A stretch of DNA of 64,000 bases. Origin: Ruegeria sp. SCSIO 43209. Its GTDB lineage: Bacteria > Pseudomonadota > Alphaproteobacteria > Rhodobacterales > Rhodobacteraceae. Under the pieces are notes generated by a model. That model was given only the letters and a program-made list of their open reading frames with translations, had not been told where the DNA came from and made no database searches. The stretch is taken from NCBI RefSeq assembly GCF_019904295.1, contig NZ_CP065359.1, positions 124,001 through 188,000 of the forward strand, read 5' to 3'. Shown here in pieces: positions 52,915-60,763 of this stretch. The position numbers and the translations under genes are program-made. The first letter of the stretch is position 1. Every line of letters starts with the position of its first letter.

Positions 52915-54108
52915 TCAGCCTTTGACGGCCTTCACGATTTTCTCGGCACCGTCTTTCAGATTGTCCGCTGCGATCACATCGAGGCCCGAGGTGTTGATGA
53001 TCTCTTTGCCCTTCTCGACATTCGTGCCTTCCAGACGCACGACCAGCGGGACCTGCAGGCCCACCTCTTTCACCGCGGCAACGACGCCCTCGGCAATCAC
53101 ATCACAGCGCATGATGCCGCCGAAGATGTTGACCAGAATGCCTTTGACGTTGGGGTCCGAGGTGATGATCTTGAACGCCTCGGTTACTTTCTCTTTGGTC
53201 GCGCCACCGCCCACATCCAGGAAGTTGGCAGGCTCGGCACCGTAAAGCTTGATGATGTCCATCGTGGCCATCGCAAGACCGGCACCGTTGACCATGCAGC
53301 CGATCTCACCGTCCAGCGCGATGTAGTTCAGGTCGTATTTGGACGCTTCCAGTTCCTTGGGGTCTTCCTCGGTCGTGTCGCGCAACTCGGCAATATCCGG
53401 GTGGCGGTATACCGCGTTACCATCAAAGCCGACTTTTGCGTCCAGTACTTTCAGGTCGCCCTTGTCCGAGACGATCAGCGGGTTGATCTCCAGCATCTCC
53501 ATGTCCTTCTCGACGAAGGCATTGTAGAGCTGGTTCATCAGCTTGACGCATTGTTTGACCTGCGCGCCTTCCAGTCCCAACGAGAACGCGATGCGGCGGC
53601 CGTGATAGGGCTGATAACCAGTGGCGGGATCAACCGAGAAGGACAGGATTTTCTCAGGCGTCGCAGCGGCCACCTCTTCGATGTCCATGCCGCCTTCGGT
53701 CGAGCATACGAATGAGATACGGCTGGTCTGGCGGTCCACCAGCAGGGCCAGGTAAAGTTCACGTTCGATGCCCGAACCGGCTTCGATGTAGATGCGGTTC
53801 ACCTGCTTGCCTGCAGGGCCGGTCTGATGGGTGACCAGCGTGCGGCCCAGCATCTTTTTGGCTTCTTCGGCGGCTTCTTCCACCGATTTGGTCAGACGGA
53901 CACCGCCTTTTTCACCGGCGTCGGCCTCTTTAAAGGAACCCTTGCCGCGACCACCCGCGTGGATTTGCGCCTTGACGACCCAAAGCGGCCCGTCCAATTC
54001 ACCGGCTGCGGTTTTGGCTTCCTCGGCGCGCAGAACTGCGCGACCATCGGAGACCGGAGCGCCATAGCTGCGAAGAAGCGCTTTGGCTTGATATTCGTGA
54101 ATGTTCAT
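52915..54108 (-). CDS. sucC: succinate-CoA ligase beta subunit
   Basis: Nucleotide-binding subunit, ATP-grasp fold, 397 residues. The start [19 protein letters not shown], the ATP loop [11 protein letters not shown], the metal/nucleotide EINPLIV and the C-terminal CoA-ligase domain with [12 protein letters not shown] and [16 protein letters not shown] are typical. It is the first gene of the sucC-sucD-DUF805-sucA-sucB-(ABM)-lpdA cluster. Its upstream region has a paired palindromic operator. Confidence 0.97.
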
Positions 54109-54216
54109 CGAAATTGTCCCGTCTGACTACGATTACACCGTTATAGGGGTGTCTAAGCGCCAAAATTAAAGAGTTTTTTGACCGGTCACGGGAAATTGTC
54201 GAAGATTTTCAGTATT

Positions 54217-54247
54217 TGTGATCACAGTTTTTTGGGGTGTGATCACA
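54217..54247. promoter_or_regulatory. tandem TGTGATCACA operators upstream of sucC
   Basis: Two identical perfect 10-base palindromes, TGTGATCACA, at 54217-54226 and 54238-54247, have starts 21 bases apart (two DNA turns). They lie 108 bases upstream of the sucC start codon. The same pair with the same spacing occurs 113 bases upstream of sdhC. The regulator is unknown from the sequence. Confidence 0.75.
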
Positions 54248-59434: not shown

Positions 59435-59500
59435 CCAATGCCTTCTGGCGGCTGACATTCAAGTGATCACGGTCCGCGAAATCCATGCTACGCTTGGCGC

Positions 59501-60172
59501 ATGATGATGTTTCGTGCGCTCGCCGCCAGCCTGTATCTGGCATCTCAGGCCTATGCTTGTGATTTGGCTCTGGCCTTGGCCGTAGACGTTTCAGGCTCGG
59601 TTGATTCCGAGGAATATCGTATCCAAATGGACGGTCTTGCCGCAGGTCTGCGGGACCCTATCGTATCCGAGGCCTTGGTGCGCGGACAGGCTCGGCTGAT
59701 GCTCGTGCAATGGACAGGCAGTTCTCGCCAGAGGATCACGATCCCCTGGACCCGGATCGATAGTTTTAACACCTTGGACAGTTTTGCTGATCAGGTCGCA
59801 GCTGATCCTCGTGTCTGGCGTAACTTCTCAACTGCGATAGGTGAGGCGCTCGATATGACGGTTGCCAGCTTTGACGACGTGCCCGAATGCGAAAGGCATC
59901 TTATTGATCTTTCGGGCGACGGAATTTCGAATGAAGGAATCGAGCCGTCGACCATCCACGCCAAACTGCGGGATCGCGGCATCACCGTGAACGCGATCGC
60001 GATTGAAGAAAGTGAACCCGATCTGACAGCCTATTTCTTCGAGAACGTCATCGTTGGCGAGGGGGCCTTTGTCGTCTCTGCAGCAGGCTTCGCGGATTAT
60101 CCCGAACGTATTCGCAAGAAGCTTTTACGCGAGGTGACACAGCAGACTGCAGGGCTGACGCCGCTCCAATAA
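59501..60172 (+). CDS. DUF1194 (von Willebrand factor A-like) secreted protein
   Basis: A 223-residue protein with a signal peptide (MFRALAASLYLASQAYA) and a vWA-type fold. The metal-site motif is DVSGSVDSEEY, followed by LIDLSGDGISNEG and VNAIAIEESEPD. The cysteines at residues 20 and about 129 (PECERHL) may pair. The DUF1194 family is periplasmic or secreted with unknown role. A single GTGATCAC palindrome (59463-59470) lies 30 bases before the start. Downstream is the sdh control region. Confidence 0.82.
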   Translation: MMMFRALAASLYLASQAYACDLALALAVDVSGSVDSEEYRIQMDGLAAGLRDPIVSEALVRGQARLMLVQWTGSSRQRITIPWTRIDSFNTLDSFADQVAADPRVWRNFSTAIGEALDMTVASFDDVPECERHLIDLSGDGISNEGIEPSTIHAKLRDRGITVNAIAIEESEPDLTAYFFENVIVGEGAFVVSAAGFADYPERIRKKLLREVTQQTAGLTPLQ

Positions 60173-60178
60173 TAGATT

Positions 60179-60266
60179 CGTGATCACATTGCTTTTTCAT
60201 TGAAAACGCTAACATTGGCGGTATCGAATGTGATTTGTGATCACGAGAATATTTTGTGTGATCACA
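60179..60266. promoter_or_regulatory. TGTGATCACA-type operators upstream of sdhC
   Basis: Three related palindromes: CGTGATCACA (60179-60188), TGTGATCACG (60236-60245) and the perfect TGTGATCACA (60257-60266). The last two have starts 21 bases apart, exactly as upstream of sucC, and end 113 bases before the sdhC start (108 for sucC). The region 60173-60379 has no ORF. A common regulator is likely. Confidence 0.78.
60201..60214. promoter_or_regulatory. possible LacI-family operator upstream of sdhC
   Basis: TGAAAACGCTAACA differs at two positions from the palindrome TGTTAACGCTAACA, which has the core expected of LacI-family carbon regulators (A-A/G-C-G-C/T-T). CceR is such a regulator reported to control TCA genes in Rhodobacter. 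It lies between the first and second TGTGATCACA-type sites. The assignment is tentative. Confidence 0.4.
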
Positions 60267-60379
60267 AACGCGGCTTATCAGCGATTTTGTGTTAAATTTA
60301 CTGGATTTTGCACCTGCAGCGCGTGACAGAGTCGTAAAAAACAGTAAAACGTTCGGTAGCCAACCGAAAAGGAGCCAAC

Positions 60380-60763
60380 ATGGCCGATGTAAATCGAGGC
60401 AACCGCCCGCTTTCTCCACATTTGACGATCTATCGTCCACAGATGACGTCCATATCTTCGATTATGGTGCGCATCACGGGTCTTGCGTCTTTTGGTTTGG
60501 CTTTGTTGGTCGTCTGGTGGTTACTTGCTGCGGCCACATCGGAAAGCGCCTTTGAGCTGATCAATGGATTGATGACCAGTTTCCTGGGTGATCTGATCAT
60601 GTTCGGCGCGGCTTGGGCCATTTTCTATCACATGCTGGGCCGTTTGCGGCACGTCATCTGGGATCTGGGATATTGCGTGAATGTTGAAGTGTCCGAGAAG
60701 ATGGGCATTGGCATGTTCGTGCTGGCAACTGTCCTGGCTCTGATCACAGCCGTAGCGCTTTAA
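60380..60763 (+). CDS. sdhC: succinate dehydrogenase cytochrome b556 subunit
   Basis: Membrane anchor of complex II, 127 residues with three helices. The quinone-site segment RPLSPHLTIYRPQMTSISSIMVRITG (serine and arginine ligands) is followed by the heme-ligand histidine in FYHMLGRLRHVIWDLGY. The ATG at 60380 follows AAAGGAGCC. It starts the sdhC-sdhD-sdhA-sdhB operon. Confidence 0.95.
   Translation: MADVNRGNRPLSPHLTIYRPQMTSISSIMVRITGLASFGLALLVVWWLLAAATSESAFELINGLMTSFLGDLIMFGAAWAIFYHMLGRLRHVIWDLGYCVNVEVSEKMGIGMFVLATVLALITAVAL

Follow-up and report, generated by a model that had tools for sequence, protein, structure and literature searches.

A likely AkgR-type regulon in Ruegeria, with a sharply conserved two-site geometry before sdhCDAB and the suc operon

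Two palindromes with the core GTGATCAC, 21 bp apart, stand before both sdhCDAB and the suc operon of Ruegeria sp. SCSIO 43209, and very probably they constitute an AkgR-type binding module of a GntR/FCD regulator, which is encoded at L001:3759-4406 and would activate the two operons. This reading is drawn from sequence. An activator is the best reading because a site of the same kind lies at the GntR/FCD gene, because gene and pair occur together in the family, and because of the published AkgR motif and the predicted AkgR regulon. The system is likely to be an AkgR-type regulon in another organism, having a sharply conserved two-site geometry, and its regulator is likely to be an activator. 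The window discussed below is the whole stretch of 64,000 nucleotides that was analysed, and its sites and first genes are the following:

60179-60188, forward strand: third copy, CGTGATCACA, 57 bp above the distal core of the sdhC pair
60236-60245, forward strand: distal site of the sdhC pair, TGTGATCACG, with the core GTGATCAC at 60237-60244
60257-60266, forward strand: proximal site of the sdhC pair, TGTGATCACA, with the core at 60258-60265, 21 bp from the distal one
60380-60763, forward strand: sdhC, succinate dehydrogenase cytochrome b556 subunit, first gene of sdhCDAB (open reading frame, TIGR02970 above cut-off)
54238-54247, reverse strand: distal site of the sucC pair, TGTGATCACA
54217-54226, reverse strand: proximal site of the sucC pair, TGTGATCACA
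52915-54108, reverse strand: sucC, succinate-CoA ligase beta subunit (open reading frame, NF001913 above cut-off)

All three sdhC copies and the sucC pair are located where the first-pass annotation had put them. It had also given a spacing of 21 bp between the starts, 113 nt to the sdhC ATG and nearly the same distance at sucC, and the measured gaps from the proximal 10-mer are 113 nt to the sdhC ATG (60380, forward strand) and 108 nt to the sucC ATG (54108, reverse strand). The geometry shared by two operons on opposite strands, to which it gave more weight than to the motif, is present with about 6.0 kb between the pairs and exceeds chance, that is, 2 exact 21-bp core pairs are seen in the genome against 0.0045 expected from its 144 GTGATCAC cores. 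Most of these 144 cores fall outside the explanation by an AkgR-type module, which is counted against it. In the window the core occurs 7 times, whereas 1.2-2.1 occurrences are expected under Markov models of order 1-3, and TGTGATCACA with at most one mismatch gives 9 matches against 1.82 expected, a number that 0 of 100 shuffles reach. The 4.6-Mb genome contains 5 exact copies of the 10-mer TGTGATCACA. The window accounts for 3; one of the other two stands just before a GntR-family gene and one lies inside an open reading frame (L002:3930-3939), and the latter also matches TTGTGATCACAA better than any other place in the genome. The gene adjoining sdhC is a DUF1194 gene with a weak von Willebrand A match (59501-60172), which ends 6 nt before the third copy, and a further GTGATCAC core is found at 59463-59470, 30 nt before the ATG (59501) of this gene.

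The pair is widely kept in the family. Paired GTGATCAC cores 11-41 bp apart were found in 273 of 296 genomes of the Rhodobacteraceae, nearly all of different genera, and the commonest number of pairs per genome, among the matches listed, is two. The reversed pattern, used as a control, matches 1 of the 296 genomes; this control flatters the motif because it contains CTAG, which is rare in many bacteria, and the counts of spacing and position are independent of it. Upstream regions were read for 72 of 96 matching genomes at sdhC and for 67 of 99 at sucC, the choice being non-random: the best-scoring 30 for each gene were taken, then further matches, and genomes in which no pair had been found were deliberately included. 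An exact pair precedes sdhC in 59 of the 72 regions (21 bp in 54, 20 bp in 5) and sucC in 58 of the 67 (21 bp in 53, 20 bp in 5). The comparison with other Rhodobacteraceae that the first-pass annotation had proposed comes out with the spacing kept, at 21 bp in 107 pairs and 20 bp in 10 over both genes.

All 9 sucC regions devoid of an exact pair come from pair-less genomes, one of which (G035) has a pair with one mismatch at 21 bp. The 13 such sdhC regions include 3 with a pair of 1-2 mismatches at exactly 21 bp and 1 with a one-mismatch pair at 19 bp; in the remaining 9 no pair, even an imperfect one, was found, and 8 of these 9 belong to pair-less genomes. The ninth (G080), which has the pair before sucC and none in its sdhC region, is counted against the AkgR reading. 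Outside the family the pair occurs in 2 of 237 genomes (from a class-wide draw of 241, 4 of which belong to the family). One of these pairs (G473) lies within long open frames. The other (G430, of another alphaproteobacterial family) is exact, has the 21-bp spacing (L313:992-1020) and stands just before a GntR/FCD gene whose product is 30% identical to the Ruegeria regulator described here; an open reading frame resembling, by eye, a short-chain dehydrogenase follows that gene.

The third copy is a real tendency of sdhC, having no fixed place. An extra exact core above the pair is present in 14 of the 59 sdhC regions with a pair, against about 0.5 expected at the density of this genome, and in none of the 58 such sucC regions read to at most about 310 nt above the pair, so the third copy is not idle chance. 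It stands 56-57 bp above the distal core in five of the 72 sdhC regions read, this genome included, and at 99-265 bp in nine others at no constant distance; over the same reach of at most about 310 nt, 45 of the 59 sdhC regions have none. It could be imagined that the third copy forms a DNA loop with the pair or offers a second docking point, and the excess of extra cores and the five regions of equal distance speak for such an arrangement. The regions of both genes that do without an extra core and the scatter of the other distances speak against it, and the copy might instead serve a neighbouring gene; looping or docking is regarded as unlikely. The first-pass annotation had offered an activator or a looping regulator for the far-upstream placement: the activator stands, as the best reading by inference, and looping has in its favour the excess of extra cores at sdhC, and against it their varied distances and the lack of such cores at sucC.

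The candidate regulator (L001:3759-4406) is a protein of 215 residues with GntR and FCD domains (PF00392 and PF07729, both above cut-offs), 98% identical to its counterpart in Ruegeria conchae, and its gene is about 127 kb from sdhC in this genome. The nearest solved structure, as judged by sequence, is McbR of Escherichia coli (4p9f; 76.3 bits over residues 18-213). A GTGATCAC core ends 8 nt before the start codon of the candidate gene. Of 80 named homologue loci, 79 likewise have a core that ends ahead of the homologous start, by 5-56 nt, and for 60 of the 81 cores at these loci the distance is 8-12 nt. Moreover, a homologue of more than 285 bits is found in 22 of 23 pair-bearing genomes and in 3 of 23 pair-less ones (Fisher p=1.2e-8, with a cut set after the scores were seen and with related genomes that are non-independent in the test), the sample being all 23 pair-less genomes and, of the pair-bearing genomes sorted by handle, the first 23. 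In two of the three pair-less genomes with a strong homologue (G035 and G258) an imperfect pair is present, with 1 or 2 mismatches and a spacing of exactly 21 bp, and in the third (G139) neither sdhC nor sucC was found. A pair at 19-23 bp with at most two mismatches in all was found in 0 of 17 pair-less genomes having no strong homologue; these 17 come from 20 such genomes, leaving out G106, G152 and G174, and G093 is covered at sdhC only. Two contrary cases are a genome that has the pair and a homologue of just 133 bits (G018) and a genome with a 198-bit homologue and no pair (G248). In one genome (G100, L312) the homologue is split into fragments in different frames, and a single one-mismatch core remains before sucC, at -115, an apparent joint decay of regulator and sites.

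There are many GntR/FCD paralogues in the genomes compared, and PS417_07240 of Pseudomonas simiae is also proposed to bind GTGATCAC (PMC6365646). It might be supposed, consequently, that the pair is bound by some paralogue other than the AkgR orthologue. However, it is the close homologue group of the candidate regulator that carries the site before its own gene (79/80 loci) and tracks the pair, so another paralogue is improbable. In 9 of 22 genomes with the pair and a strong homologue, sdhC shares a contig with the regulator gene and is no more than about 25 kb away from it, which is in keeping with the close locus numbers RSP_0981 and RSP_0974-6. Orthology of the candidate to RSP_0981 is proposed because of the targets, the motif and this neighbourhood.

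The distance from the pair to the putative sdhC promoter is nearly constant, and two putative promoter elements can be assigned in the window:

60323-60350, forward strand: putative sdhC core promoter, GTGACA (60323-60328) as candidate -35, a 16-nt spacer and TAAAAC (60345-60350) as candidate -10
54140-54145, reverse strand: putative sucC -10, TATAAC, the clearest sucC element

Of the 59 sdhC regions that have a pair, 53 show a GTGAC beginning 55-100 nt after the start of the proximal core. The distance is 65-68 nt in 49 of them and 76, 76, 78 and 88 nt in four; if a region had several, the one nearest to 66.5 nt was taken, a rule that favours the common value. In 45 of the 53 a TA follows after the 16-nt spacer. 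The distance from site to GTGAC varies little (sd 3.8) in comparison with that from GTGAC to ATG (sd 16.0). At sucC, only 13 of 58 regions have TATA[AC] at a distance of 78-80 nt from the proximal core. From these elements transcription of sdhC would start near 60357, with the site centres near -95 and -116, and that of sucC near 54133, with the centres near -88 and -109. The four longer GTGAC distances exceed the common value by approximately one or two helical turns, which, with four cases, is suggestive only. In relatives a GCGCCAAAAAACCGCGC-like element is also seen between the sdhC pair and the promoter, 30-47 nt after the proximal core (for example in L144, L146, L148, L150 and L151), and GCGCCA starts 30-32 nt after the start of the proximal core in 17 of the 59 regions; the element is absent from the window and may be the site of another regulator.

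Repression is common among GntR proteins, so an AkgR-type protein could also bind the pair and repress the operons. This is improbable as well, to about the same degree as binding by another paralogue: AkgR is termed an activator in PMC6365646, and the pair does not overlap the putative promoter but lies above it, GTGAC being found 65-68 nt downstream in 49/59 sdhC regions.

Two further explanations can be treated briefly. TGTGA and TCACA are the half-sites of CRP, which has the spacing TGTGA-N6-TCACA, and the half-site letters match those of the palindromes; nevertheless, use of the sites by a CRP/FNR-type regulator is set aside as very improbable because the half-sites abut and lack the 6-bp spacer, and because the pair tracks the GntR/FCD gene family. 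Chance repetition of a common word, which the 144 genomic copies might suggest, is hardly credible in view of the two exact pairs where 0.0045 are expected, the recurrence of this spacing at sdhC and sucC throughout the family, and the single genome among 296 that the reversed pattern matches. A wider regulon was also sought in this genome with a 12-mer allowing two mismatches; with 179 hits, compared with 45 for the reversed control, this search was too loose to name targets.

Imam et al. (mBio, 2015) reportedly equated AkgR with RSP_0981 of Rhodobacter sphaeroides, and AkgR is said to activate TCA-cycle genes directly. The present sites resemble that system in several respects. GTGATCAC is given as a motif among AkgR binding sites in PMC6365646, and the sites here match it. 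The GntR protein RSP_0981 is predicted to regulate succinyl-CoA synthetase (sucCD), succinate dehydrogenase (sdh) and alpha-ketoglutarate dehydrogenase (sucAB), according to PMC4344238, and the sites here likewise stand before the sdh and suc operons. In addition, a GntR/FCD regulator is encoded in the same genome and occurs with the pair across genomes (22/23 vs 3/23). The difference is that AkgR is known from Rhodobacter sphaeroides, which belongs to another genus than Ruegeria. No mention of the 21-bp pair was found in those parts of the AkgR literature that the search covered, Imam et al. 2015 being outside it, and a literature search with TGTGATCACA gave nothing relevant by title. The two-site layout, in near-constant register with the putative sdh promoter, is an added detail on a known kind, that of AkgR.

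Two other regulators are comparable in part. PS417_07240, the proposed regulator of the deoxyribonate cluster of Pseudomonas simiae, is a proposed GTGATCAC binder and 32% identical to AkgR, but it is assigned a single site, between -47 and -40 relative to its cluster, and belongs to another pathway (PMC6365646). CceR (RSP_1663), a LacI-family protein, is likewise a predicted regulator of sdh and mdh in R. sphaeroides, but it has its own motif, GTT N6-8 AAC (PMC4344238).

As a mechanism for the AkgR-type module, we infer that two dimers of the L001:3759-4406 protein, one per GTGATCAC palindrome, would occupy the same face of the DNA with two helical turns between them. Sitting approximately 90-116 bp above the putative starts of sdhCDAB and the suc operon, they would activate the two operons, probably through contact with RNA polymerase from the upstream side. 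The single site immediately ahead of the regulator's start codon would probably serve to repress the regulator gene. A more general proposal for AkgR of the Rhodobacteraceae, which is possible rather than probable, is that the number of sites acts as a sign switch. Two dimers 21 bp apart, held in helical register with a downstream core promoter whose distance is fixed (or longer by one or two full turns), would activate the TCA steps of succinyl-CoA and succinate, and a single dimer at the regulator's own start codon would repress; the geometry would then be the conserved signal, which fades once the regulator is gone and to which a third site is often added at sdhC.

The analysis provides two central energy operons with a likely regulator and with a promoter layout that can be tested. 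The core GTGATCAC occurring twice, 21 bp apart, is a simple pattern with which the module can be searched for in new genomes. Furthermore, genomes that have neither the regulator nor the pair are natural test cases for far-upstream activation of the GntR type, and the few sdhC promoters that seem to be displaced by approximately whole helical turns are further natural test cases for a GntR-type activator.
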